Both the position numbers and the translations under genes were made by a program. 64,000 nt of DNA from Tetradesmus obliquus (lineage: Eukaryota > Chlorophyta > Chlorophyceae > Sphaeropleales > Scenedesmaceae): NCBI GenBank assembly GCA_030272155.1, contig CP126193.1, forward strand, positions 7,688,001 through 7,752,000. Reading direction: 5' to 3'. This document shows positions 8,986 through 60,479 of the stretch, one piece after another (the stretch's first letter is position 1; the number at the start of each line of letters is the position of its first letter). Under the pieces are notes generated by a model. The model was not told where the DNA came from. It made no database searches and saw only the letters and a list, made by a program, of their open reading frames with translations.

Positions 8986-11558
8986 ATGGACACACTGTAC
9001 AAAGCAGGGGCGCTGCTCTACACGCAGGTCATCTCTCTGGCACGAATGGCGTTGCTGTTGCCTCGATTGTTGCTGAGCAATGCCATGCAGCAGCAGACAC
9101 CAGCAGCACACCCAGGAGCCACATTCTATGAGGGCAAAGTGACCCATGTCCGCAGGAGGCCTGTGGAGAACAGCTTTGAGTAAGTTGAATAACATCACAC
9201 CATTGGCATGGCAGACTCTGCAGAAATCAACACCACCAAACTACACCCATCAGTATGCTTGCACAGCGCAGTCGACAGTGTGTTAGATACCCTGCTGGTG
9301 TGGATGGTGTGTGTGCATGCAATGATGCCGGTGCATGTAGGCAGCTGGCTGTAGTGTAACCTTATATTACATGTTTGCTGTCAGCAGCTTCACTTGCACC
9401 AGCTTACAACCATCACTGCCACAGCGTCGCCGCTGCTGCTGATGCGCATGCTGCTACCACCACTGCCACCATTACGCTGCCGTGCGTTCCTTGATGCAAT
9501 GAAGATACCCGGTCCGCATGGCTCTTGTCGAACTACAGCAGCAACCACCCTGGTTCCAGCAGCACCAAGCTGCAGACCACATGAGTGCAGAGCAGGCGCA
9601 GAAGTTTGCAGGAACAGATGGTGAGTGGGCTTCAGGGTGGCAGCAGGCTGCAGACTTGCAGGACAGTGCAGCAGCAGCAGCACAAGAGGTTCAATGACTG
9701 CATCAAGTCTGCGTTGAGTGAGTTTGGGCTTGCAGGAAAGCAGCTGTGCAAGGAGCTGGTGCTTGAAGGACAGCAGGGAAGGTGTGTAGAGGGGGTGGCA
9801 GTACCTGCAGGAGGTTGGGTGGCACCTGCGGGCCACTTTGCAAAATAAAAGAAGCAATGCAGACACTTGGCAAAAGTACTACCACAGCTTCCTGCAAAAT
9901 GTCTAATGTACTGTGGCCTGACTTGTGATGGTTAGTTGCAAGCGTTTCAACTGCTCTTTTGGCTGTGATTTCCACGGTCCTGCTGACGTGTGGCAGCTTG
10001 CTGTTGTGCTTGCACACACAGGCAAGGTGCTGCTGCTGAGCAACCCCGTGGTCGCTGGGTATGCGCAGAACCCCATCAGCGTCTACTTCTGCTATGATGC
10101 AGCTGGAAAGCTCGCAAATGCCATATCTGAGGTGCGCAGGCTGCCTGTATCATGTGCTAGCGCTGCTTTGTGTTCACGTGTGCTCCTTCTATATCTGTCA
10201 TGGAGCAGCTGCTGTCTTGCATGGCAGCTGGTGCTACCTGCCGGGCGGCTTCACAAGCCATTTCGCCTGCAGGAACATGCCTCAAAGGGAGTGCAAGCTT
10301 GCCTGAGTTCAGCTGCTCCCTAGTGCGCTTGTGATGTGACGCATGGCCTGGTTTGTGCTGGCCTCTGCCACTGCTGGTGCCTCCTTGTCAGGTGACCAAC
10401 ACCCCCTGGGGTGACCGTGTGACGTTCCTGTTCAACCCCGATGGCGATGTGAGCCCTAAGGCGCTGCACGTCAGCCCTTTCATGGACATGCAGAATACTT
10501 GGTGCGTCACGCCTACACTGCTGCTGTTATGTTCTGGTCTGCTGAGGCTTGCCGCTCCAACTGTAATGTAGTGTGCAGCAGCTGGACACTTGCACCATGC
10601 GTGCGCTGCTTGCTTGCCGTTGTATGGCTGTGCTGTGTTTTCGGGTGTGCTGGGCCTGCAGTTGCACGTCTGCACTGAACAACAGCTGTGCTACAGCATC
10701 GTTGCAGCCAGCGCGTACATCACACCGCAACAATGACTGTTGCTTCTGCCGGTCGGTCTATGCCCATCCTTTGTCCTTCTGCATTGCTATATCAGCTGCT
10801 GGCCGCACAGATTAACAAGTAGTTTTGACATTCCTGCATGCGCGCTTGCAGGCACTTGAAGGCGACAGACCCAGCCAAGGGCCCAGGCCTGTCTGTGTCA
10901 GTGCTGGTGCGCCATCCCACTCTGGGTGCCTACTTTGACGCACACCTGCTGCTGCAGCGATGCCCAGAGCAGCAGCAGTGCCTGCCGGAGCAAGGAGGGC
11001 TGGCTAGCCTGCTCAGGTGAGAGGGGCGGCTGGTGCTCCTGCATAGCTGCTTTGTGTGGGGTACTGCCATGCATGTCTGCTGCTGTCGGGACTGGGCGGT
11101 TGGGCTGCAGGCGTAGGCAAGGACAACACAGCGCTGCTGGGCGGCATACTCGTGCAGGCAGGCGCAGCACTGCTAACCAACTCGTACGCCAGCTGCGGAG
11201 GCAGTAGAATACCCCCTATGGCAGCAGCAGGCATTGCTTACTTGCCACTTGATGCCGGCAGTCCTGTGACAACTGCCGTCGGCAGTGGTGAGGACACCTC
11301 AAGTGCACCGGACACCGTGACACGCGCCCGTGTCCTGCTCTGCTGCACTGCTGCAGGTTTGGCTTCATGCCTCAGCGGGTTGCCTTCTGGATCTACTGGC
11401 AGGCGGTGCGGCTGATAGCTAAGGGCTGCCCCATCCACGCCAAGCCAGCCAGCAGCAGCTTCCAGCCAGCCGTCAGCAGCAGCAGCAAGGTACAGCCGAG
11501 CGGGCTAGGCGTGAAGTACGTGTGGCGGGAAGCACCGCAGTGGCCATGGTACCTGTGA
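8986..11558 (+). CDS. DUF1365 family protein
   Basis: Six exons restore a complete 298-residue protein: 8986-9179, 9505-9620, 10022-10131, 10392-10501, 10852-11016, 11357-11558. All junctions are GT-AG and phases agree. Family motifs appear in order: FYEGKVTHVRRRP, ENSFEYPVRMALVEL, GTDGKVLLLSNPVVAGY, NPISVYFCYD, ALHVSPFMDMQNTWH, RHPTLGAYFDAHL, and a C-terminal WIYWQAVRLIAKG. These match DUF1365 proteins, which are about 240-300 residues long, often sit beside fatty-acid cyclopropane synthases in bacteria, and have no settled biochemical role. The start is the first ATG in frame and gives a hydrophobic N-terminus (about residues 14-30) that could be a membrane anchor or targeting segment. The 400-base second intron might hide a skipped exon, but GTD|GKVLL joins cleanly without one. 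Confidence 0.88.
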
Positions 11559-12452
11559 CGCCACGCCATGCAGCAGGCAGGAGGCGAGCTGGTGCTTAAG
11601 CTTTGGCGGCGCATCGCTTGGGCTGCAGTGCCGGCAACAGCGCCACGTGTGAGTGTGGTGAGCGTGCGGGAATGCTGAGGCTTGCAGGACTGCTGCTGCT
11701 GTCTGCAACGTGGCCTGACATCGCCGATGAACATGCCTGCGACTCAAAGGCAGCATGACCAGCACTGCTAGGCGTGCCTGACACGTATCGATCTTGTTTC
11801 AGCTGAGCACTTGTTTATTGCCGTGGGAGATGCAGTAGTGTGCTGACAGACGCTGCACTGTTTGTAGCGATTTGTGGCGGTCCTTGGAGGGGGCATGCAG
11901 CATCCCTGCTGCCATGTGTACGGCCAGACACGCTGTGTTTTTTCTTTAAGCATTTGCCTGGTGATGCCACAGTACAAGTACGAAGTGCGCAGCCTGTGAT
12001 GGGGGCAAGGACATGTTCATGCTCTGTCTACTGCACCACTATGATTAAGGCCACACGCTACGACATGCCACTACAGTCTAGGCTACTGCATATGCAGATC
12101 TGTCTACAGCATAAAAGTGGCTGCATGCATGTGAAGGGCTGTTAGGGACCAGACATCGCACCAGTACAATGCAACGTTGTTTAATTTGGTTACCAAAAAT
12201 TCCCACTCGAAGCCGGCGATGTAAGTGATGGAAGCCGGGTTACGCAAGCAGTATGCAAGCAGATGACGAATTGGGAGCTAACCTGAGCCAATCCGGCATT
12301 GTGAGCGTGCCTGGCGTTCAGGCAAATGTAAAGTGTGGCAACTTGTTTAGAATTGGCAAACAATGGCATTCACGTTGAACATGTTCGCAAAGTTGCAACA
12401 ACAACAAGCCAAGAGCCGGCGAGTTCACACCGTGCTTCATGGGAAGCATCAC
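11559..12452. other. 3' flank of DUF1365 gene and upstream flank of the duplicated gene
   Basis: No coding exon was recognised. A TGTAA motif lies at 12327-12331 but is about 770 bases from the DUF1365 stop. From about 12361 the sequence begins to align with the reverse complement of about 27085 downward, marking the outer edge of the inverted duplication. Confidence 0.45.
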
Positions 12453-12536
12453 TGCCCGGGCGCGGCCGGGATGACGCCCGGTAACGTTGGTGCAGTTTGT
12501 AACACAGCCTGCTGTACCCATGATATCCTATATAAG
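12453..12536 (+). promoter_or_regulatory. Promoter of the left cysteine-rich gene (GC element and TATA box)
   Basis: A GC-rich block at 12453-12489 (GGGCGCGGCCGGGATGACGC at its core) and a TATATAAG box at 12529-12536 are both conserved in the right arm, although surrounding bases differ. A further shared block, AGCCGGCGAGTTCACACC, lies just upstream near 12413. The TATA box is about 146 bases before the ATG. Conservation inside otherwise diverged flanks argues that these elements are functional. Confidence 0.65.
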
Positions 12537-12674
12537 GCGCTGCTGCTCAAGTCAAAACATCATCAAGCGGAAGTATACAGCCAACCAACTCAGCTGACAT
12601 CTGATTCGCTACAATACAAGACAGTTTACTGAACTCTGTGCTCCATACATAATATATTGCAACTTTCTTTAGTC

Positions 12675-15600
12675 ATGCGGTTTTCTCTAGCGCTGCTGCT
12701 TTTGGCAGCGGGTGCTGTCGCCGTGCAGGCGAGCAGTGGTGAGTTTTTACCGATGTTGTTGCCGGGCAATGTTCTCCCACAGCAAACTCAATTATACATC
12801 CGTGTCAGTTGAAGTACCTGCAGCATGACCTCAGCGATCAGTGCTCCTCGGCTGACCTGAACCTCCCGCCCTCTGTTGCTGCGCAGGCCGTGCCCTGCTG
12901 CAGGGATCCGCGACATGCCCCATCAGCGGCTGCAAGGATGCCAACAGCTGCATCTACAACAGCGACACCAGGAGGTGGTCGTGCAAGGCCTGTGTGGCGC
13001 CCCTGGTGCCCAACTCCAACAGGACTGCATGCACGGTGAGGGCGCCTTGCTTGGTGCAGTGGAGCTAACAGCAGCAGCACCACCACCAAAGGCTCCTTTG
13101 TCCACTTGGCCAGCCTGCTTGTGGGTAGCCGCAACAGTGAGCGCGTTATACCGATTATCACCAGCTGCAGTGTGCTTGAACTTCACTTGAATCAGGCTGC
13201 CAATGCATTGCACTGACCTGACCTGCCCTGCCTCTGCTCTGCGTGCAGTGCGTGGCTGGCAAGTACCGCACCAGCAATGGTGACTGCACCGACTGCCAAA
13301 AGAACTTCTACTGCCCTGGCAACGGTGCCGGCAAGGTTGTGTGCGGCAACGGCCTCATCACTGCCAAGAGGGGCGCAGTGAGCAAGAACAACTGGTGAGC
13401 ACAGCTGCTGCGGCCATCTGCTTTACTGCAGTGTGCCAAACATGTACTAGCAACTGGCAGCTGCTGAGTGGTTGCTCTCTGTCATGCCGCATCACCATGT
13501 CCACGCATCACACCTTTTGCGCCTGCCAAGGACAGGCACAGGCAGTCACTGACATGCTGCTGCTGCTGCCTGCAGTGTGAACCCTCCCGGCTACAAGTAC
13601 GTCAAGACTGCCACCACCGTCAAGGCAGAGGCATGCGGTGACAACACATACAGCCTGGGCCTCAAGCAGCAGCCTACCTGCAACCCCTGCCCGCCCGGCT
13701 TTGTGACAGACCCCGACAACAACGCCGGCACCCACACATCTGCTGCCGTCTGCCGTGAGTGACCCGGCACTACTGTTGCTGCAGTCCCTGTTGCTTGTGG
13801 CTTGTATGCAGCCTGAACAGCTGGTTGTCCGCGCCCGCCAAAGCCATATCCAGCTGCTTCTAGACAACAGCATCTGCAACCCGACGTCTGCTGCACACTC
13901 TTGTGCTGACATGTGGCTGTCTTGCTCTGCCTGCCTGCCGCGCTGCCTGCAGTTGCTGCGCCCGGCATGTACATGCTGGGTGACACTGTTGTGCCCTGCC
14001 CCAAGGGCGAGTTCAGTGACAGCTTTGGCAGGAACACCGCCTGCACCTCCTGCGAGTCACTCTTTGGCCAGGGCGTGACCACAGCCACCACCAACTCCAC
14101 CTCCAAGGACCAGTGCAGCTGTGAGTGACGCTGCGTTCACCACAGCAGCGGCTTTTGCGTGGCAATGGCTATGCACACAGCAGCGGCTGTTGCCGATACG
14201 CTCGCAGCCCCATTCCTGTGTGAGATTTGCTGCGTGCTGCTGCCGGTCATTGCCCTGCAGCTGCCAGCCAGCTGTGCTGCTTGATGCTGTGACAACATGT
14301 CTGCTCAGGACCGCCCATGCTTACTCCTGCTTCTTCTTCTGCTGTTGTCACGCACATGCTGCTCCCCCTCTGCTGCAGGGTCTGAGGCTGGCTTTGCGCT
14401 GGTTGATGACAAGGGCAAGGTCATCCTGGGGGCAATGAGCACCAACCCTGCTCAGGTTGTGGCTGGCGCGCGCCCCTGCCCTCAGAGCTACTACTGGTGA
14501 GCTGCACGCAACGCCGGCAGCAGCACAGCACCCCGCATTGTACCACGCTGCTCACAGGCGCTGACCACTCTGCTGCAACTGAGCCGGGTGTACACTGCTG
14601 CTGTGATCAGCTGCTGCTGTGTAGGTAAGTGTTTACCCTCAGCTGACGCAAGCTGGTGTATCCTGCTCCCACTGCCCATGCTGCTGCTGTGTGTCTGCAG
14701 CCCCGGTGGCGATCCTGCTGTGGCCGCCAGCCAGCCCACCAAGTGTGACACTGACCTGACCATTGTCGGGCGCCTGTGGACGGAGGGCGAGGGCGCCACG
14801 TCTGACGAGGACTGTGTGGCGCCTCCAGGCTGGGCCAGGTCGACCGGCACGACTGTGGTGGAGTGTGCATCCGGCACATACAAGAGCGTGAGTGGCAGCC
14901 TCTGCTGCTTGTGTCTGTAGGCGCCTAGCAGGCATGGCGCATACCTGCACAGCGGTTCATGTGCTGCTCTGCCTGAAGGTGCTGCACGCAATGTCTCACA
15001 GCTTGATTGGTTCACAGTGCTGCGCTTGTTCTTGATCTGACCCTGATTTGCAAACCTGCTGCTGCTTCTGCTGCTGCAGACGTGGGACAACACTGCAGCT
15101 TGCACCTCTTGCGGCTCTGGCGTGTGGGTCAGCAACCGCAGGTCCTGGATCACCGCCACTGACGCGTACAGCCAGCCCACCAAGCAGTTCAAAGTCAGGG
15201 GATCCTCCGAGTCTTGCTGTGAGTCACGATTCCTGCGGGACCCCAGGCTCATTCCCACATCCCAACTCCTGCAGCAGCACCTTGCACTGGACAGCGATGT
15301 ATTGTGCCACATGAGTAGTATGCACTCTGGGGTGTCGCCGCACTGTCCTGGTCAGGCCAGTTAGCTGTGCTGTTGTCGCTCACCCGTTGCTGCCTGCGCT
15401 GCGCTGTGCCGGCCTGCAGACATCCAGCCTGGCATGGGTGCCACTGTCAGCCACGATGCTGACGGCAACGTGGAGCTGAAGGCCATGGTGTGCCCAGCCA
15501 ACTACTTTGGCATCACAGCCAACAAGTGGGGCGTGGTGGCCACCCCCTGCCAGGTGAGCTGCCGCTGCTGCGTGGAGTGCTGCTGCTGCTGCCACCCTTG

Positions 15601-16029
15601 CCTCCGCTCACGCTGCTCGCAGCACTCTCACCACGACAGCGTTTGCAGCCCAGCCTGCATGCAAGGCGCCTGCAGCACTGCGACATGCTGTGAATGCAGC
15701 AGATAACACACTCCGCCATCCTTGCTGACTGTCTGTGGTTGTGCACCGCCGCAGGCCTGCCCAGCCAACACCCGCACCGGGTTCAACAGCGCCCCTGCGC
15801 AGTACAAGGCGGCATCGTACTACACCACCGCTGATGACATGGACACCGCCCCCAACACCTTGAGCGGCCTCACTGAGCCTACTGAGAAGCTCACCCGTGA
15901 CGGCTACTACAATGTGACAGCCTGCTACACAAAGCCCGGTTATGGCTACTACTCCGGCGCCGCGTCCATCTGCCCCAAGGGTTACTACAATGCGGGTGAC
16001 AACCGTGAGCCCTGCACCAGGTGCGCATC

Positions 16030-16101
<72 letters not shown>

Positions 16102-18635
16102 AGGTTCTGCAGTCAACACACACAGTCAACATGCATGCATCACATGCTCAGCATGACTCATGTGCCCACTGCGTCTGCCGCGCCAATGTGTTCAGCATCT
16201 TTCAGCTCACCCTGCTTGCTGACACCAGCACACATGCAGCCATGCATATCTGCTGCTTGCCCGGTGACCTGCAAGTCGACTGTGTTTTGCGCCGCCGTCA
16301 CTGCATTTCTCAGGTGCCCCAACGGCAAGAGCACCTTCTTTGAGGGCAGCACCAGTCTGGCCGACTGCATGGCCTACGCAGCCGGCTACGGCAAGGTTGG
16401 GTCTGCGGCAGCGCTGTGCTACACCGGCACCTACAACGACGGCAGCAGCGAGGTCTGCCTGCCCTGCCCCCTGGGCACCACCACAGACGTCACAGGCGCC
16501 ACCTCCAACGCAAACACCCTCAGCGGCAACCCCGTTGACACCTTCTGCAAGCGTGAGTGGCACGTCATCAGTGCGCTTACGCAGCTGTGCCGCTGTTGCT
16601 TGAAGTACCTCATTGCCAGGCCCAGCAGTGGCCTGCCAGCAGCGCATTTTGCTGCTGCAGGCTGTCTTTTGGTTCACCTGCTGTTGGTTGTGTGAGCCAT
16701 GCCAAGCCCACTGCTCTCACCTTGCTGCCGTGCGTCCTTGCGCCGCCTGCAGTGTGCGCGCCCGGCTATGGCGGATCCAGCGCGACTGAGTGCGCCACTG
16801 GTGCCACGACAGCCGCCAAGCTCTGCCAGGACGGCTACTACGGCTCCCCAAGCCGCACCGGCAGCGACACCGCCTGCGCCACCTGCCCCACAGGCCGCAG
16901 GTTCACCTACACCTACACCACTGACGACGTGTACCTGCCCGGCGCAACCTCTCGCTACGGTGCCAACTCTGCGGACGACTGCATTGCGGGTGAGCCTGCA
17001 CACGCCTGCGCTGGGTTTGTGCAGCAGCCTGGGCGCATCTCTTCAATGTCAGGCCGCAGCATGCCGTGCTTGCACCATCCTCTGCGCCTCACCCCATTCT
17101 TCTGCCCCGGTGTGTCTGCCCGCAGACTTCTCCCAGACCGTGGACGGCTCCAGCTACCTGCCGCTGACCCTCGGCTCCGCAGTGGCTGATGTAGTCAGCC
17201 TGCGCGGGTGTGTGGATGCCTGCCGCAGTGCGGGCACCTGCGCTGCTGCCACGTTTGCGTACTATGTTGCTGACACTACTGGCAGCGGTGCGGCCGAGAC
17301 AGCCTGCTACCTGTGGAGCCCGAAATCAAACGGTGCTGCAGGAAGGTGAGCACTGCTGGCGTGGCCTGTGGTTGGTTGTGCGCTGTTGGGAGTGTGGGTG
17401 TGCTTGTGGATGCATGTGGAGAGCGTGTGCAGGTCATGTCATGCAACAGGTGTTGCTCTTGGACTTTGAAGCCTATGCCGCTACCAGCTGTGGCAGCACA
17501 TGCCTGCAGGGATGGCCTGGTGACCAAGCACGCACGCTGTAACGCAAGGTGTGCTGGTCTTCTGCTTACAAACTGCGCTGCTGCTGCTTCTGCTGACGTC
17601 CCTGCAGCGGCGTTGCGCTCAAGACCATTACCTCCACCGCCAACAGCCAGTCTGTCCAGGCCCAGGACATGGGCACAGGCATCTGGACGTTCTACGCCAA
17701 GACTGACGCCCCCGAGCCGGCGCTGACTGCCTCTGGCGCTGTCGACATCACCACCTCCATCCCCTCTGGGAGCTTGAAGCTGTCGGAGTGCTTGAAGCGC
17801 TGCGCCAGTGACAGCCAGTGCGCCGGCGCAAACTACGCAGGTGGGCGTGAAGCCGTGGCTGGGCCAGCATGCGGCACAGCTGTGCTGCCGCGGCACCCTG
17901 GCATGCACAGGTTGCCCTGCACAGTGCGCTCAGTGGTGTGAACAGCGCCTTGCATGGTTCATGTCCTGACAAGTTGCACCTGCTGTTGTGCATTGGTTGT
18001 TCCTCGCACTGCACCACCTGGCAACCCTTGCGCTGACCCGGTGTGGCTGCTGCCGCTGCTGCTGCTGCTGCTGCTGCTGCTCTGGTGCGTGTTGGTGGTG
18101 TGGTGCAGGCCTGGCAGATGCGACCGACCCAGACTCCGCCATCACCGCCTGCTTCAAGATCATGACCCAGACCACGGCATCCGCTGCCCTGCGCAGCATG
18201 ATCAAGGCCGGCTACACCAAGTTCTCGCCGGCCATGTTCTGCCCAGCAGGGCAGGTGTCCAAGGCAGACGGCAGCGCCTGTGTGGCCTGCGCAGCTGACA
18301 CCATCAAGCCCATGGCTGGCTTTGCCAAGTGCGTGGCATGCGCTGCTGACACGTACGCCACGACAGACTTCACGCAGTGCAAGCCTCTGGCGTTCTGCCC
18401 GCCAGGCAAGACACTGGACTCTGCGGTGGCCGCAAACGCCCGCTTCCTGCCCGCAAGCTGCAGCAGCTGCGCCGCAGACGACTACAAGGCACTGGCCGGC
18501 GCGCAGGCCTGCGCCACATGCGCAACCAGCGGCAACGTCAATGACGCCGCCACCAAGTGTGCTGCTACTGCCGCCATCTGCGCGGCGCCGCTGATGCTCG
18601 ACCCCACGGACAAGTCGCAGTGCTACATTCCTTAG
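12675..18635 (+). CDS. Secreted cysteine-rich protein, left copy (ephrin-receptor/GCC2-GCC3-like repeats)
   Basis: Fifteen exons, all GT-AG with matching phases: 12675-12738, 12887-13035, 13249-13394, 13576-13754, 13953-14120, 14379-14496, 14701-14887, 15080-15218, 15420-15553, 15755-16020, 16314-16552, 16753-16989, 17126-17345, 17608-17840, 18109-18635. The product is 1001 residues. Residues 1-20 (MRFSLALLLLAAGAVAVQA) form a signal peptide. The rest repeats short cysteine modules of the form C..C..G.....G...C..C (for example CNPCPPGFV, CPKGEF, CPKGYYNAGD), typical of GCC2/GCC3 or ephrin-receptor-like regions common in algal surface proteins. Residues about 676-826 (CVDACRSAGTC, CLKRCASDSQCAGANYA) look like PAN/apple modules. 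No membrane anchor is visible at the C-terminus, so an extracellular or wall-associated protein is likely. Ligand and function are unknown. Confidence 0.9.
16031..16099 (+). repeat. (CTG)23 tract in intron 10 of the left copy
   Basis: Twenty-three uninterrupted CTG units directly follow the donor site of intron 10. The equivalent place in the right arm has only nine, in otherwise nearly identical intron sequence. The 42-base difference is the largest one between the inner parts of the arms. Confidence 0.95.
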
Positions 18636-19348
18636 GCTAGCCCAATGCATGGCGTGGAGGCTGCAGCTAGAGAGAACCTGCTGATGTGGGGACAGCAGCA
18701 GGTTGCATCAGCGCAGCCAGCTGATGGCTTTCTGCTGATGTTGTATGGTGTGCAGGTGCACAGCGCAGCTGTACATGCAGCTGCTTGTTGGCTGTGATGC
18801 ACTACATGTGCAAGGTTTTGAAGGTAGCTCAGGTTTGAAAAGTCAGCACAGCTGATGATGCACTAGCGTGGGCTGCTTCTATTGTTTGCATTTGTTCAAA
18901 CCAGTTGGCGTGTTTATGTGCTCAAGATCTCCGTGCGTTCACGCATTCCCATTAGGAGGATAGCGGTGCTTGGATTTTTTGGGGCATTTCTTGCAGCCGC
19001 GCCTGGCTTGAATCCAGACGCGTGTATGCCTATCACGATTCCAACAGTATGACCATCAGGTGCTGCGAAGAACAGCACAGCACGCCACATTCCAGGCCGT
19101 TCATGCTTGACCATTGTTTTCTTTGATTGTTACAGCACAATGCTCGGGGCTCGCCCGCAAGGCACAGCCAACAAGCACAGCTCACCTCCCTGCCTGGTGC
19201 TGTGCAGCGCTCACAGCACTGAGCCAGCACTGATTTATTTCAAGCCCTTGTGGGTGTTGCTTCCACCTTGAGTGAACTGGTGGCTATACCAGTGCGTATG
19301 GATTGTTCATTGTTGTGATGCAGCATTCAACGCAGGTGCCTGGGCATC

Positions 19349-20092
19349 AAAAGCAGCAGGCGGTGTTGCGGTTTTGGGACTTGCTCGCTGACTTTGTGGA
19401 AATGGATGCTGCGCCGGCTCATTGGCGTGTCGCGATGCCTGGTGATCATCAATTTTTGCGCTCTGATCCAGCACGGCTGCGCATTGTACTGGCGCCCCGC
19501 TCTGGTTGACCTCCCTGCTTTTACATGCTGTGCTGTCAGCAGTTGTTAAATATCCACTATCTGGTTGGCACATTTGTTGGCAGCGCAATGCGCCGGTACA
19601 GCAAATGATGTGCGGTCATTGCCATCAGTACACCCATGGTGGAAGCAACGCGCGTCGGCGCGCCCACGAGGGCTTGAAATAAACCAGCGCACTTTGCACA
19701 ATACAGTCCTGTCAGGCCTTGCACCATACGTTCCAGCCCTCAACCATTGCAGGATTGCCTGTACTTACAGTAGTGAGCATCGTCTGGAAAAGGCTGTCTG
19801 TCACAGAGGCCAAGGGGCGCTGTCGGCAAGCTGTGCAGAGCGCACCATGTATGACCTGAAGCAAAGTGGTGCATCAAAATCATGCAAGGGGCCGGCTGTG
19901 CACATCTGCAGCAGCTGTTGATCAAAAGCTGCCCGGTTGAAGGCTGGCATTACATTTGTTCCAACCTGTTTACTTTGTAAAATGCATATAAGGCAGGTGG
20001 AATTGTTTCAAGCTAAGTGGTGCCTATAGCCTGTAGCCATGGTTCCTGCACATTCGCCTTGGTTACATCACTGAAGAACACCGAGTCAACTG
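19349..20092. other. Spacer between the inverted arms
   Basis: About 744 bases unique to the centre. It holds no recognised gene. At 19637-19690 it carries a third, diverged copy of a motif present near the inner end of both arms (GGTGGAAGCAAC followed by GGGCTTGAAATAAA), with an 11-base insertion between the two halves. A CATATAAGG element near 19984 resembles the TATA boxes elsewhere in the window. This could be the remnant of an older, longer arm or of a small mobile element. Confidence 0.6.
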
Positions 20093-20804
20093 ATGCCCAG
20101 GCACCTGCGTTGAATGCTGCATCACAACAATGAACAATCCATACGCACTGGTATAGCCACCAGTTCACTCAAGGTGGAAGCAACACCCACAAGGGCTTGA
20201 AATAAATCAGTGCTGGCTCAGTGCTGTGAGCGCTGCACAGCACCAGGCAGGGAGGTGAGCTGTGCTCGTTGGCTGTGCCTTGCGGGCGAGCCCCGAGCAT
20301 TGTGCTGTAACAATCAAAGAAAACAATGGTCAAGCATGAACGGCCTGGAATGTGGCGTGCTGTGCTGTTCTTCGCAGCACCTGATGGTCATACTGTTGGA
20401 ATCGTGATAGGCATACACGCGTCTGGATTCAAGCCAGGCGCGGCTGCAAGAAATGCCCCAAAAAATCCAAGCACCGCTATCCTCCTAATGGGAATGCGTG
20501 AACGCACGGAGATCTTGAGCACATAAACACGCCAACTGGTTTGAACAAATGCAAACAATAGAAGCAGCCCACGCTAGTGCATCATCAGCTGTGCTGACTT
20601 TTCAAACCTGAGCTACCTTCAAAACCTTGCACATGTAGTGCATCACAGCCAACAAGCAGCTGCATGTACAGCTGCGCTGTGCACCTGCACACCATACAAC
20701 ATCAGCAGAAAGCCATCAGCTGGCTGCGCTGATGCAACATGCTGCTGTCCCCACATCAGCAGGTTCTCTCTAGCTGCAGCCTCCACGCCATGCATTGGGC
20801 TAGC

Positions 20805-23800
20805 CTAAAGAATGTAGCACTGCGACTTGTCCGTGGGGTCGAGCATCAGCGGCGCCGCGCAGATGGCGGCAGTAGCAGCACACTTGGTGGCGGCGTCATT
20901 GACGTTGCCGCTGGTTGCGCATGTGGCGCAGGCCTGCGCGCCGGCCAGTGCCTTGTAGTCGTCTGCGGCGCAGCTGCTGCAGCTTGCGGGCAGGAAGCGG
21001 GCGTTTGCGGCCACCGCAGAGTCCAGTGTCTTGCCTGGCGGGCAGAACGCCAGAGGCTTGCACTGCGTGAAGTCTGTCGTGGCATACGTGTCAGCAGCGC
21101 ATGCCACGCACTTGGCAAAGCCAGCCATGGGCTTGATGGTGTCAGCTGCGCAGGCCACACAGGCGCTGCCGTCTGCCTTGGACACCTGCCCTGCTGGGCA
21201 GAACATGGCCGGCGAGAACTTGGTGTAGTCGGCCTTGATCATGCTGCGCAGGGCAGCGGATGCCGTGGTCTGGGTCATGATCTTGAAGCAGGCGGTGATG
21301 GCGGAGTCTGGGTCGGTCGCATCTGCCAGGCCTGCACCACACCACCAACACGCACCAGAGCAGCAGCAGCAGCAGCAGCAGCAGCGGCAGCAGCCACACC
21401 GGGTCAGCGCAAGGGTTGCCAGGTGGTGCAGTGCGAGGAACAACCAATGCACAACAGCAGGTGCAACTTGTCAGGACATGAACCATGCAAGGCGCTGTTC
21501 ACACCACTGAGCGCACTGTGCAGGGCAACCTGTGCATGCCAGGGTGCCGCGGCAGCACAGCTGTGCCGCATGCTGGCCCAGCCACGGCTTCACGCCCACC
21601 TGCGTAGTTTGCGCCGGCGCACTGGCTGTCACTGGCGCAGCGCTTCAAGCACTCCGACAGCTTCAAGCTCCCAGAGGGGATGGAGGTGGTGATGTCGACA
21701 GCGCCAGAGGCAGTCAGCGCCGGCTCGGGGGCGTCAGTCTTGGCGTAGAACGTCCAGATGCCTGTGCCCATGTCCTGGGCCTGGACAGACTGGCTGTTGG
21801 CGGTGGAGGTAATGGTCTTGAGCGCAACGCCGCTGCAGGGACGTCAGCAGAAGCAGCAGCAGCGCAGTTTGTAAGCAGAAGACCAGCACACCTTGCGTTA
21901 CAGCGTGCGTGCTTGGTCACCAGGCCATCCCTGCAGGCATGTGCTGCCACAGCTGGTAGCGGCATAGGCTTCAAAGTCCAAGAGCAACACCTGTTGCATG
22001 ACATGACCTGCACACGCTCTCCACATGCATCCACAAGCACACCCACACTCCCAACAGCGCACAACCAACCACAGGCCACGCCAGCAGTGCTCACCTTCCT
22101 GCAGCACCGTTTGATTTCGGGCTCCACAGGTAGCAGGCTGTCTCGGCCGCACCGCTGCCAGTAGTGTCAGCAACATAGTACGCAAACGTGGCAGCGGCGC
22201 AGGTGCCCGCACTGCGGCAGGCATCCACACACCCGCGCAGGCTGACTACATCAGCCACTGCGGAGCCGAGGGTCAGCGGCAGGTAGCTGGCGCCGTCCAC
22301 GGTCTGGGAGAAGTCTGCGGGCAGACACACCGGGGCAGAAGAATGGGGTGAGGCGCAGAGGATGGTGCAAGCACGGCATGCTGCGGCCTGACATCGAAGA
22401 GATGCGCCCAGGCTGCTGCACAAACCCAGCGCAGGCGTGTGCAGGCTCACCCGCAATGCAGTCGTCCGCAGAGTTGGCACCGTAGCGAGAGGTTGCGCCG
22501 GGCAGGTACACGTCGTCAGTGGTGTAGGTGTAGGTGAACCTGCGGCCTGTGGGGCAGGTGGCGCAGGCGGTGTCGCTGCCGGTGCGGCTTGGGGAGCCGT
22601 AGTAGCCGTCCTGGCAGAGCTTGGCGGCTGTCGTGGCACCAGTGGCGCACTCAGTCGCGCTGGATCCGCCATAGCCGGGCGCGCACACTGCAGGCGGCGC
22701 AAGGACGCACGGCAGCAAGGTGAGAGCAGTGGGCTTGGCATGGCTCACACAACCAACAGCAGGTGAACCAAAAGACAGCCTGCAGCAGCAAAATGCGCTG
22801 CTGGCAGGCCACTGCTGGGCCTGGCAATGAGGTACTTCAAGCAACAGCGGCACAGCTGCGTAAGCGCACTGATGACGTGCCACTCACGCTTGCAGAAGGT
22901 GTCAACGGGGTTGCCGCTGAGGGTGTTTGCGTTGGAGGTGGCGCCTGTGACGTCTGTGGTGGTGCCCAGGGGGCAGGGCAGGCAGACCTCGCTGCTGCCG
23001 TCGTTGTAGGTGCTGGTGTAGCACAGCGCTGCCGCAGACCCAACCTTGCCGTAGCCGGCTGCGTAGGCCATGCAGTCGGCCAGACTGGCGCTGCCCTCAA
23101 AGAAGGTGCTCTTGCCGTTGGGGCACCTGAGAAATGCAGTGACGGCGGCGCAACACACAGTCGACTTGCAGGTCACCGAGCAAGCAGCAGATATGCATGG
23201 CTGCATGTGTGCTGGTGTCAGCAAGCAGGGTGAGCTGAAAGATGCTGAACACATTGGCGCGGCAGACGCAGTGGGCACATGAGTCATGTTGAGCATGTGA
23301 TGCATGCATGTTGACTGTGTGTGTTGACTGCAGAACCTAGCAGCAGCAGCAGCAGCAGCAGCAGCAGGGATGCGCACCTGGTGCAGGGCTCACGGTTGTC
23401 ACCCGCATTGTAGTAACCCTTGGGGCAGATGGACGCGGCGCCGGAGTAGTAGCCATAACCGGGCTTTGTGTAGCAGGCTGTCACATTGTAGTAGCCGTCA
23501 CGGGTGAGCTTCTCAGTAGGCTCAGTGAGGCCGCTCAAGGTGTTGGGGGCGGTGTCCATGTCATCAGCGGTGGTGTAGTACGATGCCGCCTTGTACTGCG
23601 CAGGGGCGCTGTTGAACCCGGTGCGGGTGTTGGCTGGGCAGGCCTGCGGCGGTGCACAACCACAGACAGTCAGCAAGGATGGCGGAGTGTGTTATCTGCT
23701 GCATTCACAGCATGTCGCAGTGCTGCAGGCGCCTTGCATGCAGGCTGGGCTGCAAACGCTGTCGTGGTGAGAGTGCTGCGAGCAGCGTGAGCGGAGGCAA

Positions 23801-26770
23801 GGGTGGCAGCAGCAGCAGCACTCCACGCAGCAGCGGCAGCTCACCTGGCAGGGGGTGGCCACCACGCCCCACTTGTTGGCTGTGATGCCAAAGTAGTTGG
23901 CTGGGCACACCATGGCCTTCAGCTCCACGTTGCCGTCAGCATCGTGGCTGACAGTGGCACCCATGCCAGGCTGGATGTCTGCAGGCCGGCACAGCGCAGC
24001 GCAGGCAGCAACGGGTGAGCGACAACAGCACAGCTAACTGGCCTGACCAGGACAGTGCGATCAAACTTCAGAGTGCACTCTACTCATGTGGCACCAAAAC
24101 ACCGCTGTTCAGTGCATGGTGCTGCTGCAGGAGTTATGATGTATAGATGAGCCTGGGGTCTCGCAGGATCATGACTCACAGCAAGACTCGGAGGACCCCC
24201 TGACTTTGAACTGCTTGGTGGGCTGGCTGTACGCGTCAGTGGCGGTGATCCAGGACCTGCGGTTGCTGACCCACACGCCAGAGCCGCAAGAGGTGCAAGC
24301 TGCAGTGTTGTCCCACGTCTGCAGCAGCAGAAGCAGCAGCAGGTTTGCAAATCAGGGTCAGATCAAGAACAAGCGCAGCACTGTGAACCAATCAAGCTGT
24401 GAGACATTGCGTGCAGCACCTTCAGGCAGAGCAGCACATGAACCGCTGTGCAGGTATGTGCCATGCCTGCTAGGCGCCTACAGACACAAGCAGCAGAGGC
24501 TGCCACTCACGCTCTTGTAGGTTCCGGATGCACACTCCACCACAGTCGTGCCGGTCGACCTGGCCCAGCCTGGAGGCGCCACACAGTCCTCGTCAGACGT
24601 GGCGCCCTCGCCCTCCGTCCACAGGCGCCCGACAATGGTCAGGTCAGTGTCGCACTTGGTGGGCTGGCTGGCGGCCACAGCAGGATCGCCACCGGGGCTG
24701 CAGACACACAGCAGCATGAGCAGTGGCAGCAGGATACACCAGCTTGCGTCAGCTGAGGGTAAACACCGGCCGCAAAGTGCCCGGCGCAGCTGAAGGCAGC
24801 AATGTCAAGGGCGCTTGTCGGTTAGGATCAGTGTCTGGCAGGCGCTGCTGTGCTGCTGCCGACACCCTGTGCGCCTCACCAGTAGTAGCTCTGAGGGCAG
24901 GGGCGCGCGCCAGCCACAACCTGAGCAGGGTTGGTGCCGAGTGCCCCCAGGATGACCTTGCCCTTGTCATCAACCAGCGCAAAGCCAGCCTCAGACCCTG
25001 CAGCAGGCGGGCACAGCAGCCCATCACGTCAGGCAAGAAGAAGAAAAGAAGAATAAGGAAAAGAAGCAAACGATGACAGGACAACCATGGGTCAACAGGG
25101 AGGGATCCCACTGAGCAGCAAGGCTTGCTGCTGGCTGACAGTGCAGCTGAAAAGACAAGTGCACATAGCAGCGTAGCAACGGAATTGACTGCAAAAGTGC
25201 AGCTGCAGGCTTGCATCGCCAGTTGTTGCCTCTCGGCACAGCAACTGTTGTGGCCAATGCGGGGCCCACTCACAGCTGCACTGGTCCTTGGAGGTGGAGT
25301 TGGTGGTGGCCGTGGTCACGCCCTGGCCAAAGAGTGACTCGCAGGAGGTGCAGGCGGTGTTCCTGCCAAAGCTGTCACTGAACTCGCCCTTGGGGCAGGG
25401 CACGACAGTGTCACCCAGCATGTACATGCCGGGCGCGGCAACTGCAGGCAGCAAGGCACAACAGGCAGCCACATGTCAGCGCACGGCTGTGCAGAGGGAA
25501 GGGGTCTGATTGCAGTCGCAAATGCACGGCTTCGGCTCGAGTTCAACATGTACAGGCACGGCAGCAGCTGCTGAGGCCGGAAGGAAGTCACGCTGCCACA
25601 ATAGCTGCTGCAACAGTGCTGGGTCACTCACGGCAGACTGCAGCAGATGTGTGGGTGCCGGCGTTGTTGTCGGGGTCGGTCACAAAGCCGGGCGGGCAGG
25701 GGTTGCAGGTGGGCTGCTGCTTGAGGCCCAGGCTGTATGTGTTGTCACCGCAGGCCACGGCCTTGACGGTGGTGGCAGTCTTGACATACCTGTAGCCGGG
25801 AGGGTTCACACTGCAGGCAGCAGCAGCAGCAGCAGCATGTCGGTGAACGGCCTGTGCCTATGCTTGGCAGGCGCGGAAGTTTTGATGTGTGGACATGGTG
25901 ATGCGGCATGACGGAGAGCAAATATTCAGCAGCTGCCAGTTGCTAGTACATGTTTGGCACACTGCAGTAAAGCAGATGCCGCAGCAGCTGTGCTCACCAG
26001 TTGTTTTTGCTCACTGCGCCCCTCTTAGCAGTGATGAGGCCGTTGCCGCACACAACCTTGCCGGCGCCGTTGCCAGGGCAGTAGAAGTTCTTTGGGCAGT
26101 CGGTGCAGTCGCCGTTGCTGGTGCGGTACTTGCCAGCCACGCACTGCATGCAGAGCAGAGGCAGGGCAGGACAGGTCAGAGCGTTGCATCGGCAGCCTGA
26201 TTCAAGTGAAGGTCAAGCACACTGGTGATGTAAATGGTACATACACGCTCACTGTTGCGGCTACCTGCAAGCAGGCTAGCCAAGTGCACGAATGATCGCT
26301 CTGGTACTGCTGCTGCTGCAACTGCTGCTGCTGCTGCTGCTGTTAGCTTCACAACAACAAGCAAGGAGCCCTCACCGTGCATGCAGTCCTGTTGGAGTTG
26401 GGCACCAGGGGCGCCACACAGGCCTTGCACGACCACCTCTTGGTGTCGCTGTTGTAGATGCAGCTGTTGGCATCCTTGCAGCCGCTGATGGGGCATGTCG
26501 CGGATCCCTGCAGCAGGGCACGGCCTGCGCAGAACCGGTGCAGCAGCAAACAGCGGGGAGTTGACTTCAGCCGGGAGCAGCGATGACTAACCTAGAATAC
26601 GAGTTCACTGCGTTAGGCAATAATCAACGACTGAAATTTATGATGCCGGTGCACATTCACGCTGCCGAAAGCACCTTCGCCAGCAACCACATCGGTGGCA
26701 ACTTACCACTGCTCGCCTGGACGGCGACAGCACCGGCTGCCAAAAGCAGCAGGGCTAGAGAACACCGCAT
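20805..26770 (-). CDS. Secreted cysteine-rich protein, right copy
   Basis: Reading from the ATG at 26768-26770, the exons are 26707-26770, 26376-26524, 25998-26143, 25632-25810, 25274-25441, 24880-24997, 24511-24697, 24180-24318, 23845-23978, 23378-23643, 22888-23126, 22451-22687, 22095-22314, 21600-21832, 20805-21331. The product is again 1001 residues with signal peptide MRCSLALLLLAAGAVAVQA. Differences I can see from the left copy are few and scattered: F3C, R/K in exon 2, Q/P in exon 3, K/R and E/V in exon 4, T/A and G/S in exon 11, S/A in exon 13, G/D and the final P/L in exon 15. Every splice site is intact. Both copies therefore look functional. The two genes converge, so their 3' ends face each other across the spacer. 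Confidence 0.9.
23341..23367 (-). repeat. (CTG)9 tract in intron 10 of the right copy
   Basis: Written CAG on the + strand, nine units, at the exact position of the 23-unit tract in the left arm. The two tracts flank the same donor site in matching introns. Confidence 0.95.
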
Positions 26771-26914
26771 TGTTCTGATTCGTGGATGTCAAGTAAACTG
26801 ACCCTAAGAAGCGAGTATCAGCTACACTGTCTGGTATTGCAAGTCACTTGAAGGCAAACTGAGGATGTTTGACTTTGTGTCTGCTCGATGATGTCTTAGG
26901 TGAGACAAGTACGC

Positions 26915-27000
26915 CTTATATAGGCCTTGAAATTGCAGCAGGCTGTGTCAATTCACCTCTGCAATGTTACCGGGCGTCATCCCGGCCGCGCCCGGGGCAG
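26915..27000 (-). promoter_or_regulatory. Promoter of the right cysteine-rich gene
   Basis: The TATATAAG box (26915-26922, minus strand) and GC element (about 26961-27000) match those of the left copy. The TATA box is about 145-152 bases before the ATG, much as in the other arm. The shared upstream block GGTGTGAACTCGCCGGCT (+ strand) lies at about 27021-27038. Confidence 0.65.
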
Positions 27001-27085
27001 TGACACTTCGCGTGAGGCAGGGTGTGAACTCGCCGGCTCCTACACTCTTTGTTGTAAGTTCGCCAGCAGTTTCAATGCGAATGTT

Positions 27086-27574
27086 ACTTTTACACCTTAT
27101 CAGCCCCAGTTCAGCGCAATACTACTCATGAGAACACTGTGACAGCCAGGCATGCTTTGGTAAAGCCGGTGTCCACCACGTCTAATGCTTGCACTATGTT
27201 CGCGTAATCCGTCTTTTACCATTTCATCGGCTGCGAGTTGATGTTTTTGTGCACAAATTTCAGTATGGGGCTTCTGTTATGTGCTATGTTTTGGTTTTCA
27301 ACAGCACTGCACATGCAGCAGCACTGCATGATGCAGTTGAGTGGCCATGACCTTTGCTCCCGTCACCGACTGTGAAGTTGTGGTGTAGTAATGCTAGACA
27401 ATGTCTCAAGGAAGCTGCCACACTTGCCTCGCCGTGCAATTGGCTGCAGGGCTGCTGCACGCCCCACCACAGTTACCAAGCTCCGTTACATACACATACC
27501 CCTTAGGTGCTCCAATAAGGCAGGGCCGATGGTGCTGTTGCTATTGCTAAATATAAATATATCAAAGGACGTAA
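27086..27574. other. Interval between the right arm and the NIPSNAP gene
   Basis: No gene recognised. It contains the presumed 3' UTR of the NIPSNAP gene, including TTACA (TGTAA on the minus strand) at 27486-27490, 85 bases beyond its stop, and the upstream flank of the right cysteine-rich gene. Confidence 0.5.
27486..27490 (-). terminator. Polyadenylation motif TGTAA of the NIPSNAP gene
   Basis: TGTAA on the minus strand, 85 bases after the NIPSNAP stop codon at 27575-27577, a typical distance for green algae. Confidence 0.6.
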
Positions 27575-28798
27575 TCAGCGCCACGGAGAGAACGCTGTCG
27601 GGTGCAGCAGGCTAGTCTGGAACTGCTGAACTCTGGGGGTGACTGCAGCAATGGTGTCACGCCATTTCTGCACCGCCCTGGCTGACACCCGTGCCCTGCA
27701 GCAGCACCACAGCATTTGCAGTCAAGCTTGCATCCGCACATGCGGCATGTAACATGCCAGCATCACTGCTGCCGCGCGTGCTTGCGTGAGCTTTCCTTCC
27801 AGATTGCAGCAGTGCTGGTGGCTGCCACCAACAACCTACTGTGTACAATGTGGGTGCCAAAGGGTTACAAGCACATGCTGCTGCTGCTGCTGCGGTGCGT
27901 GAGCACACCCGCTGCTTCCATACTCCCTCAACACAGCTTGTGCCCAGCAGCTGCGCCCAAAAGTTTCCCTGCAAGCATCCTGCATGCAAGCATCCTGCAT
28001 CTGCATGCAAGCATGCCTCGCTCTCACTTGATGCATGCTGCTGCGGAGGGGTAGCGCCACAGCTCCACCACGTTGTTCAGCACGCCCACGTCGCTGTGCG
28101 CAAACGCCACCAGCAGGCCATCACGGTCAGCAGCAACCTTCTCAGGCAGCCTACAAGAGCAGGGCAGTATAGAGTGGCGCAGGCACAGGTGTCAGGCCCA
28201 GAGGCACTGCGTGCCCAGCAGGACAATGTAGTTGTGGAAGGCGCGCATGCCAGCCCTGGCAGCAACTCCTGCAGGCGGGCTGCGGTCATTCACACAGGCA
28301 TCACGGTCAGCAGCAACCTTCTCAGGCAGCCTACGGCAGCCTGCAAGCGCAGCACAGAGAGGCTCACGCACAGGTGTCAGATCTGACCCATAGGTGTAAG
28401 ACCCACATGCACCGCTTGCTTAGCAGGAACACACAGGCAGGGCAGATGCATGCCAGCCCTGGCAGCAGCTCGCTCATACAGGCTGCAGATGTGTGATGTG
28501 GCCAACGCATTCGAAAGCATGCAGCGTTTGTGTGTGTGTACAGCGTGATACCCCTGTTTGCCTTGGCTTGGGAGCACACAAGCACAGAGTCTCGCTGCAA
28601 AGGTTTCCTGCCATTGCAAGTGTGGCAGCTGCATTTTGCTCAGGCAGCACAGCCTGTGCACTGAGTGCAGCAGCAGCCGCCTCACCCGTCAGCAAAGGCA
28701 GCCAGCAGCTTGGGCACTGAGCCGTAGCCTGGGTGCAGCTGGTACTGCCGGTACTCGTACACCTGTCAACAAGCAGCAGGCACACACAAAACTCAAGT

Positions 28799-28830
<32 letters not shown>

Positions 28831-30530
28831 AATCAGGCATATGGCGTAGCTAATCTTTGGAAGGCGGTGCACATCAACAGATGCGCATCAGCGTCACGCC
28901 AACGGTGGTCCTATTGCTGCAACGCACCTGGCAACACATGCAATCGTCATGCTGCTGTATATATTCACACTACTGCCACTGCCGCCAGCCATGCAACCAT
29001 GCTCGCATTTCCATTGCTTTCAGCAAGCAGCAGCGCTGGTTGCTTACCGGGTTGTTAGGCAGCGTCTGTGGGGGGCTCCTGAAGGCTGCTGCTCCAGGCT
29101 TACCCAGGGCTTCATACACTGCAGCAGACTCCACCATAATGCGCGACTCCTGCAAGCAGATTGCATGGCTGTGTCGAACACTGGCAGCGTTGCCACTGGT
29201 GGCATTGACATGACATGATAGCTTGGGATGATGCCTTGGCTGCCGCCAATCTAGCCATGTCAAGCAGTTCTAGTTGAAGCCTTGACAGCCACAGCAGGGC
29301 ATGCGCAATGTTGCTGCCCTCACTTCTGGCAACATATCCATACCAAGTCAATGGCGCATGGTGAGGACGCTGGCGTCATTGTCACTGCTAGAACTGACAC
29401 GGCTGCACCTGCAGATGCTATACAGCCCTGCTTGCCGCAGCACAGACGTGGAATTGCCGGGCACAGGACTTGCCAAAGATTGGCGGCCGTCCTCGTGAGG
29501 CGTTCTGGTGAAGCCTCACATACATACAGCTGTGCTGCCCCACCTGCTTTGCTACGTGTGGCCTGCTGGCATCAATGAACGCCTGCCACTGCGCGTCCTT
29601 TGCTGCTGCTGCGCGCACTGCCTCACGCTGCTCTAGGTCCTGCAGCAAGGCGCGCAGGCAGCGGTAGCAGCATGAGCATACGTGTGCACGTATGACCAAC
29701 ACTGGCAAATGCATGCTGTGGGATGTGGTAGCACAATCAAGGGCGTCTTGCGAACAAGTGCAAGAGGAGCACCAATGGCAGAGTGCAACTTGTGCATAGC
29801 TGGTTTTGTCTGGCCTGCTGGCAGATATGGCCGGGATTCAAGTCAACCCTGCTATAGCATGCTTGTTCTAGCACATCAACTAGACCCAAGCTGCCTGAGC
29901 ACTGCTGTTGCTGCACCTTGTAGTGGTAGAAGTGAGTGACCTTGTTTAGGTCACCGCCAGTGTCACACGTGAACATCCTGCAAGCGAATGCAGTACCGCA
30001 GCCATACGCAGCACTATGAGCGACACAGCAAGAGTTTCAGTGTCATTCAAAGCGCGCTTTGGCAGGTGGCGCGGCATGCTCAGGCTGCGCAGGTGCAACC
30101 TGCGCACAGATATTCAATGCAAGGCAGAGGCCTGGTTGTCTGGTGACTAATACATGAGAGTGCACTTAGCCAGCATGCAGGGCAGCAGCAAATGTCTCTG
30201 TACGGCCCACCAGTGAGACTTGAACAGCAGGTGAAACCCAATGTGCGCCTTGTGCAGCATTGCTGGCATGTCACTGGCTCACCCCAGGAAAGGCAGCAGC
30301 TTGGAGCGCAGTGCTGCATTCTCTGCTGCCAGCTTCATGAACTGCTTAGACCCTACTGGGTGCAGGGTGTACTCCCTGATCTCCAGAATGCCCAGCCCAT
30401 GCTGCTGCTGTTGGCTGCTGCTGCTGAAAGCTTGCGCCAGTAGTGGTAGTGCTGCACTGCTGGTGCAGCTGGCAGCACGCGCACCCTGCAGTAGCGGAGG
30501 CCAGGCTGCGGCTTTGATCGACTGCTGCAT
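27575..30530 (-). CDS. NIPSNAP family protein
   Basis: Seven exons from the ATG at 30528-30530: 30283-30530, 29917-29977, 29544-29639, 29048-29149, 28686-28762, 28028-28150, 27575-27695; 275 residues, all GT-AG, phases consistent. The N-terminus (MQQSIKAAAWPPLLQGARAA, serine-rich after it) looks like a mitochondrial or plastid transit peptide. Two NIPSNAP units follow: LEIREYTLHPVGSKQFMKLA ... LNKVTHFYHYKDLEQR near residues 52-125, and VYEYRQYQLHPGYGSVPKLL ... NNVVELWRYPSAAACI ... KWRDTIAAVTPRVQ ... PTAFSPWR to the end. NIPSNAP proteins are dimeric alpha/beta-barrel proteins; animal ones are mitochondrial and act as mitophagy signals. The algal role is unknown. Intron 5 holds a partial copy of the start of exon 6 (see the repeat at 28119-28334). 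Confidence 0.9.
28119..28334 (-). repeat. Duplicated 3' splice site and start of NIPSNAP exon 6
   Basis: A 36-base sequence at 28119-28154 recurs exactly at 28299-28334, 180 bases away. On the coding strand it is the last bases of the intron (TAG acceptor) plus the first 32 coding bases of exon 6. The inner copy (28119-28154) continues into the real exon. The outer one runs into unrelated sequence and reaches a stop. Confidence 0.9.
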
Positions 30531-34400: not shown

Positions 34401-34916
34401 GCCAGAACACCAAGTGGCTCAAGGTGCGGCTGCGGGGGAGGGCAGGTTGCTGCTGGTACTATTTCACCAGCTGGGTGCTTGTGGTTGAAGCTACTGCGGA
34501 TGCCTGGTGGTCAGTGTGCTGGCTGGCGTTGTTGCTGCAGCAGCTGTGCATGGAGTGTTGGTCGTGTGGCTGCTACAGCTGCTGGTTGCACCATTGGGTG
34601 CTGCTTGGCTGAGGGTGTGGGTGATGGGCGTGCCAGGCGGTGGGTGAGATGGCTGTGTTGGTGCGGCAGGGGGCCACAGCAGCAAGCGCTGTAGGGTGCA
34701 GACAGCCTGCCTGGCTCTGTCTTGGCGTCGTGGTCTCCACATCTGCTCAGATGTGATCTGCTGCTCCTGCTGCTCCTGCTGCTGCTGCTGCTGCCGCTGC
34801 TGCTGCTGCTGCCGCTGCTGCTGCCGCTGCCGCTGCTGCTGCTGCTGCTGCCGCTGCAGGATGCCGCCACCAAGAGTGACTTTTACCTGGACCTGCAGAA
34901 GCTGAAGGCGGTCTGA
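31475..34916 (+). CDS. CBM45-like starch-binding protein (glucan water dikinase N-terminal type), 5' end unresolved
   Basis: Exons that join in phase: about 31475-31592, 31919-32084, 32386-32481, 32736-32901, 33612-33790, 34860-34916 (stop TGA). The domain is recognised from LLLHWAVSRKGPPAERWELPPRGWKTLP, then GGAWQSTLEKHPL, PLEGPLAEGGMIFVLKSG, NTKWLKDAATKSDFYLDL. This matches the carbohydrate-binding repeats (CBM45) at the N-terminus of alpha-glucan water dikinases, which bind starch in plastids. The dikinase itself is absent: the frame ends right after the domain, so this is a stand-alone binding protein of at least about 260 residues. The first coding exon is not certain; an ATG at 31304 followed by a transit-like stretch is one candidate. 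Introns 4 and 5 are filled with copies of the adjoining exon ends. Confidence 0.72.
32873..33640 (+). repeat. Repeated exon ends within intron 4 of the CBM45-like gene
   Basis: The end of exon 4 with its donor (32873-32905, ACGCTGCCAGAGTCCACCG then TGGACGCAGGTGCG) recurs at 32993-33026, 33098-33130 and 33202-33230, with spacing near 105-120 bases. The start of exon 5 (33612 onward, CAG then GTGGCGTGGCAGTCC-like text) is preceded by two more copies at 33387-33420 and 33513-33540, each behind its own CTGCAG acceptor. Outer copies have accumulated changes. The copy at 33387 runs in frame for about 30 codons before a stop. Confidence 0.9.
33756..34680 (+). repeat. Tandem array of exon 5 ends, unit 242 bp, within intron 5 of the CBM45-like gene
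   Basis: GCGGCAGCACGGGCC followed by the codons for QNTKWLK and a GTGCG donor occurs at 33756 (the real exon end), 33998, 34240 and 34389, with a remnant at 34663. Spacing is 242, 242 and then 149 bases. The intervening sequence (for example the block around 33810-33960) is also repeated nearly identically. So whole units of exon end plus intron were copied in tandem, and each copy kept a usable donor. Confidence 0.92.
34788..34859 (+). repeat. CTG/CCG-rich tract forming a 3' splice region
   Basis: About 70 bases of CTG with CCG interruptions run straight into the CAG acceptor of the last exon of the CBM45-like gene at 34860. The tract replaces an ordinary polypyrimidine tract. Confidence 0.8.
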
Positions 34917-60472: not shown

Positions 60473-60479
60473 CCACACA

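Follow-up and report, generated by a model that had tools for sequence, protein, structure and literature searches.

An inverted gene duplication in Tetradesmus obliquus whose mosaic of arm identity points to an old origin and repeated gene conversion

The region described here is a window of 64,000 nucleotides (positions 7688001-7752000 of contig C3) from the Tetradesmus obliquus assembly, which comprises 104.7 Mb in 17 contigs; all coordinates below refer to this window. It contains an inverted duplication with two paralogous genes, here called copies A and B, lying in opposite orientation and tail to tail. When the window was compared with itself by BLASTN, positions 12367-19349 (left arm, forward strand) paired in inverse orientation with 27083-20091 (right arm, 20091-27083, reverse strand) at 91.2% identity over 7114 columns, with 375 mismatches and 77 gap openings. 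The arms flank a spacer of 741 bp (19350-20090), which has its own sequence and is not common to the arms. A first-pass annotation had described two complete tail-to-tail genes around a short spacer of about 744 bp, and this arrangement is borne out in all but the exact length of the spacer. Its description of the arms as reverse complements holds for the inner part of about 4.7 kb, which is near-identical, but not for the outer part of about 2.3 kb, in which introns and promoters have strongly diverged.

Copy A (12675-18635, forward strand) was delineated by its open frame, its GT-AG splice sites and Pfam matches, and consists of 15 exons at 12675-12738, 12887-13035, 13249-13394, 13576-13754, 13953-14120, 14379-14496, 14701-14887, 15080-15218, 15420-15553, 15755-16020, 16314-16552, 16753-16989, 17126-17345, 17608-17840 and 18109-18635. 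The 15 exons of copy B (20805-26770, reverse strand) have the same lengths and lie at 26770-26707, 26524-26376, 26143-25998, 25810-25632, 25441-25274, 24997-24880, 24697-24511, 24318-24180, 23978-23845, 23643-23378, 23126-22888, 22687-22451, 22314-22095, 21832-21600 and 21331-20805. All introns are bordered by GT and AG (14 of 14 in each copy), and each gene encodes 1001 residues followed by a stop codon, although in copy A the first exon can end at either of two donor sites, giving 1001 or 1000 residues. The two proteins differ at 12 residues over this length. The protein is rich in cysteines and starts with a hydrophobic N-terminal leader, as judged by eye. Two kinds of domains could be identified in the copy A protein with Pfam, i.e. 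Ephrin_rec_like (PF07699) in seven stretches (82.5 bits, with a curated cut-off of 23.1) and PAN_1 (PF00024) in two stretches (25.7 bits, with a curated cut-off of 21.4). Because of this leader and these domains, the protein is predicted to be secreted and to have a putative extracellular or cell wall role.

Aligning the arms, a check proposed with the first-pass annotation, reveals a mosaic that is near-identical inside and diverged outside. Exons and introns were aligned one by one to obtain percentages, and site counts were taken from one single alignment. Introns 7, 9, 11, 12, 13 and 14 and 714 bp of the 3' flank are 99-100% identical between A and B, and four of these introns (9, 11, 13 and 14) are at 100%. 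Intron 10 differs by three bases and by 14 CTG units, the CTG tract of copy A (16031-16100, forward strand) being 42 nt longer than that of copy B (23340-23367). Introns 2, 3 and 8 are intermediate (83, 93 and 90% identity, respectively), while introns 1, 4 and 5 reach only 61, 65 and 53%, the 5' flank 65%, and the sequences beyond the arms 62-65%. Unrelated introns of copy A, compared by the identical method in 40 pairs, show a mean identity of 49% and a maximum of 55%; intron 5 lies inside this range, and introns 1 and 4 are still somewhat higher. Intron 6 is diverged until about position 14629 and matches beyond it, with a jump in identity within a few bases.

The left arm can be divided at this position into a diverged outer part (12367-14628, forward strand), in which the exons are kept but introns 1, 4 and 5 and the 5' part of intron 6 are nearly dissimilar, and a homogenised inner tract (14629-19349, forward strand; partner 24766-20091), which takes in the latter part of intron 6 and everything from there to the spacer, and whose edge was read from the alignment. 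A divergent island (15219-15345, forward strand) lies inside this tract. Non-coding differences amount to 397/1364 sites in 12367-14624, 3/261 in 14625-15218, 20/126 in the island, and 6/2106 from 15346 to the spacer, where the coding differences number 7/1856. With the island set aside, 14629-19349 has 20 differences in 4549 aligned sites. Among 3857 non-coding sites, the longest run of identity spans 675, a length that was reached in none of 2000 shuffles (maximum 113).

The duplication appears to be old, since introns have decayed while exons 1-6 kept a synonymous divergence (dS) of 0.094 and a nonsynonymous divergence (dN) of 0.012. The recent origin put forward by the first-pass annotation is contradicted by introns 1, 4 and 5, which are little more alike than unrelated introns. 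The inner arms, introns included, are far more alike than the age of the duplication allows, as the non-coding counts of 6/2106 and 397/1364 come from the same gene pair. From 15346 inward, coding and non-coding divergence are about equal, and protein selection is therefore not what keeps the inner tract alike. Also, the edge of the tract inside intron 6 is explained by no gene boundary. Finally, the several coexisting levels of divergence (100, 93, 90, 83 and 53-65%) require more than one event.

The source of the homogenised sequence was sought in the rest of the genome. Among the other members of the gene family no donor was found, with a match of at most 51% per exon for the best 46 of 782 candidates, which were scored. 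When the genome was searched at the DNA level for the outer part of A, the sole matches were A, B and a stretch of 184 nt on contig C4 (all three candidates scored). The corresponding search for the outer part of B, in which 40 of 216 candidates were scored, gave B, A, a stretch of 144 nt on C4 and short CAG-type repeat matches. A third copy as donor for either diverged 5' half was rejected, as neither of these outer-part searches found one. With no third donor locus found, the opposite arm is the remaining source, which amounts to arm-to-arm gene conversion.

We therefore consider it very likely that an old inverted duplication was followed by repeated gene conversion between the arms, fullest and latest in the inner part of about 4.7 kb. 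The duplication would have given the gene a second copy, with the two lying tail to tail, after which repair between the arms, using one arm as template for the other, would have homogenised A and B repeatedly. This homogenisation would be most complete and most recent over the inner part adjoining the spacer. The outer 5' halves would mostly have escaped it; their introns and promoters would have drifted, with only the exons, the splice sites and the core elements of the promoters preserved by selection. The comparisons show directly the mosaic with its sharp edge, the absence of a third close copy from the searches made and the open frames of both genes; gene conversion as the process, its recurrence and the expression of both genes are inferred. 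Ongoing repair between the arms had been among the suggestions of the first-pass annotation; the mosaic of identity supports it as past, repeated repair.

Both 5' flanks contain core promoter elements. One of these, 31 bp long and without any difference between the copies, lies upstream of copy A (12455-12485, forward strand) and of copy B (26966-26996, reverse strand), and a genome-wide pattern search allowing up to 3 mismatches gave these two places only. In addition, the TATA-like box CCTATATAAGGCG is found upstream of copy A (12527-12539, forward strand) and of copy B (26912-26924, reverse strand), identical in both arms within a 5' flank that is otherwise about 65% identical. The conservation of both elements in flanks that otherwise match poorly suggests selection on both promoters and use of both genes.

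At the other end of the genes, the motif TGTAA is of interest, as it is the polyadenylation signal of green algae. The first TGTAA downstream of each stop codon lies in the spacer, at 19976-19980 (forward strand) for A and at 20063-20067 (reverse strand) for B, so that the two face each other. By chance one TGTAA is expected per about 1200 nt. Two paralogs each have one sense TGTAA, at 858 and 572 nt past the stop codon, and none in antisense in the stretch examined. The presence of facing polyadenylation signals in the spacer is suggestive only. A fragment of a multi-copy repeat (19351-19564, forward strand) adjoins the left arm on the spacer side; with 40 of 199 candidates scored, its 214 bp occur in at least 39 other places with 89-90% identity. 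Six other copies of this repeat share 97-99.9% identity in stretches of 0.8-2.2 kb, and the fragment is probably derived from a mobile element. Spacer positions 19570-20090 have no second match in the genome (one candidate, itself), apart from a weak match (73 columns, 71%) within the window to the arms' own 3' flank. A search of the window against Rfam gave nothing at gathering scores. The spacer as a further arm or as an RNA gene was rejected, as it holds the repeat fragment and a remainder without a second genome match.

The wider gene family provides controls for the behaviour of exons and introns outside the palindrome. At least 11 other family loci were found on seven contigs (four on C1, two on C4, and one each on C5, C11, C12, C13 and C14). 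Members on one contig are dispersed, and the two closest neighbours (about 28 kb apart on C1 and about 120 kb apart on C4) are in the same orientation. Eight family regions were retrieved and three pairs were compared, i.e. L039/L040, L041/L043 and L039/L041. In the non-palindromic pair L039/L040, whose members share their orientation and sit about 120 kb from each other on C4, no intron is homogenised: identity is 49-71% for the six introns flanked by exons that align well, and 61%, in a gappy alignment, for a seventh interval close to the 3' end. The dS of this pair is 0.29 over residues 22-79, 0.065-0.19 over residues 80-745, and 0.4-0.9 beyond. The trend of divergence is opposite to that of the palindrome, since L039 and L040 diverge fastest towards the 3' end, while A and B are most alike in their 3' half. 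In the pairs L041/L043 (on C1) and L039/L041 the introns are 45-58% and 42-48% identical, respectively, which is the level of unrelated introns or slightly higher, and dS is mostly 0.23-0.76 in well-aligned exons. Among the pairs compared, intron homogenisation is confined to the palindrome.

In the dispersed pairs L039/L040 and L041/L043 the exons are well kept (dS from 0.065) and the introns unrelated or nearly so; codon bias and exon-limited conversion are candidate causes. The GC content at third codon positions in L039 is 0.83-0.93 in blocks of low dS and 0.78 in the block of high dS, and codon bias may lie behind the low-dS exon blocks. As low exon dS beside saturated introns occurs also in non-palindromic pairs, a separate conversion of exons 1-6 of A and B cannot be claimed. 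Conversion of these exons only, for example templated by complementary DNA (cDNA), would be expected to leave a dS well under that of similar unconverted paralogs whose introns are saturated; their dS of 0.094 resembles the 0.065-0.19 seen over residues 80-745 of the control pair L039/L040, with its introns at 49-71%.

In a second strain, the annotation of the protein OEZ85_012483 fuses the left neighbour of the palindrome to exons 3-12 of the A/B gene. This neighbour (exons at 9085-11516, forward strand) carries PF07103, which we take to be DUF1365, and it precedes the A/B gene in both strains, so that the gene order on the left side is equal. Over the 608 of 867 residues compared in this one protein model, OEZ85_012483 differs from A at 7 positions and from B at 8, and A differs from B at 7. 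At the seven sites where A and B differ, it sides with B at three and with A at four. Taken as the positional counterpart of A, OEZ85_012483 would be as far from A as A is from B, which fits concerted evolution but proves little. At its C-terminal end, OEZ85_012483 matches a junction of exon 12 with exon 14 read in a different frame, apparently an annotation error. When other strains were searched for a 3' half annotated on its own, the only match was a metagenome protein of 241 residues with 71% identity.

Errors of assembly usually sit beside the centre of a palindrome, which is where the arms are near-identical here, and a fold-back read, a collapse or the joining of two haplotypes at the spacer could in principle have produced them. 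Such errors would give arms that are equal to within read error, or mirrored flanks, whereas here the divergence of the outer introns far exceeds what alleles or read error would produce and the CTG tract of intron 10 differs by 14 units (42 nt). Each flank occurs once in the assembly, the right one (27084-29500) without further matches and the left one (10000-12366) apart from a 37-bp match on C6, and the DUF1365 neighbour precedes the same gene in the annotation of the second strain. An artefact thus appears very unlikely, and so does the misjoin between haplotypes at the spacer that the first-pass annotation had named as its refutation, given also the identity of only 62-65% outside the arms. 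The near-identity of the inner arms and the two open frames would also be expected from a recent inverted duplication of the whole gene. Such an origin is extremely improbable, since divergence along the arms is not uniformly low, introns 1, 4 and 5 and the 5' flank (53-65%) stand little above unrelated introns, and the searches with the outer parts gave no third locus from which one copy might have acquired a diverged 5' half. Selection alone, keeping the copies alike without any homogenisation, could account for exons 1-6 conserved beside saturated introns, as the same is seen in non-palindromic family pairs and selection or codon bias may hold exons; it fails to explain why introns 7, 9 and 11-14, together with 714 bp of the 3' flank, are 99-100% identical, and is almost certainly not the explanation.

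Two further alternatives were considered. A single recent event of fold-back or template-switch replication may have copied the inner 4.7 kb onto an older convergent neighbour, with no recurrent conversion. The tract from 15346 inward is uniformly about 0.3% different and unbroken to the spacer edge, as such an event would leave it, and mechanistically the event equals one very long conversion; however, it does not account for the intermediate introns 2, 3 and 8 or for the island within the tract, which call for additional events of different age, and we regard this explanation as quite unlikely. Rather unlikely, too, is a family-wide homogenisation of exons templated by spliced RNA or cDNA, with introns drifting, to which the palindrome would add a DNA-templated process reaching introns and 3' flank near its centre. 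Several points also weigh against an old duplication with repeated arm-to-arm conversion. Gene conversion is deduced here indirectly, from one genome and one protein model of a second strain, and that model has seemingly mis-annotated ends. One large recent replacement of the inner tract together with older outer events would look much alike. A bias towards GC, often a companion of conversion, is not clear from the small, unpolarised difference in intron GC content (0.56-0.65 for introns 7-14 and 0.53-0.62 for introns 1-6).

Other features of the window include a tandem array of a 49-bp unit (46594-47236), in which a 202-nt reference matches in ten registers, the inner ones being identical, and repeats of 242/125 bp (33756-34702) and of 138 bp (60196-60689). 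Tracts of CTG/CAG are very frequent in the window, for example at 193-250, 592-654, 16031-16100 and 34745-34860. Two long open frames lie on opposite strands (42156-43295, forward; 42431-43807, reverse), neither with a Pfam match at an E-value of 0.001.

What sets copies A and B apart is the clean separation of old, intermediate and recent strata inside one intron-rich gene pair. Their arms hold DNA homogenised recently, long ago and perhaps never, and may serve as a natural ruler for the reach of conversion from the centre of an inverted repeat. They also give a warning that near-identical neighbouring copies are not by themselves evidence of recent duplication.

The protein belongs with an algal family of Ephrin_rec_like/PAN proteins, among them the Tetradesmus paralogs OEZ86_005909 and OEZ86_011966, which have the same Pfam domains and are 38% and 37% identical to it, respectively, over 88% of the query, but are longer, with 1521 and 1530 residues compared to 1001. 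In the literature on Tetradesmus, Chlamydomonas and the Ephrin_rec_like/PAN family, no report of such a palindrome was found. The first-pass annotation had considered a long palindrome with so short a spacer to be unstable in most genomes. A spacer of 741 bp is not exceptionally unstable, and the survival of the palindrome needs no special cause, since according to a review longer spacers lower instability, and wild-type yeast stably maintains a 6-kb pair whose spacer measures 280 bp (PMC7999016).

The palindrome is a clear further example of the already known gene palindromes homogenised by conversion. In three species of Caenorhabditis, long inverted repeats with convergent and divergent pairs of paralogs have been described, for which gene conversion was proposed (Zhao et al. 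2007, PMC1803023). These share with the A/B pair the opposite orientation of the paralogs, near-identical arms including intergenic DNA, and an old duplication; a convergent example is provided by HSP16 genes with a 414-bp spacer (PMC1803023). The age of the Caenorhabditis repeats follows from orthologous structures in three species, whereas that of the A/B duplication is deduced from saturated introns in one genome, and the identity of A and B is a partial mosaic within genes of 15 exons, unlike that reported for the Caenorhabditis repeats (PMC1803023). The palindromes of the human Y chromosome, e.g. P6, likewise have inverted arms around a unique spacer, homogenised by arm-to-arm conversion, with conversion tracts of kilobase size (mean minimum 2068 bp, up to about 9 kb; PMC3723533). 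In contrast to copies A and B, which are homogenised only inside, the human Y arms are more than 99.9% alike and lie on a sex-limited chromosome (PMC3723533).

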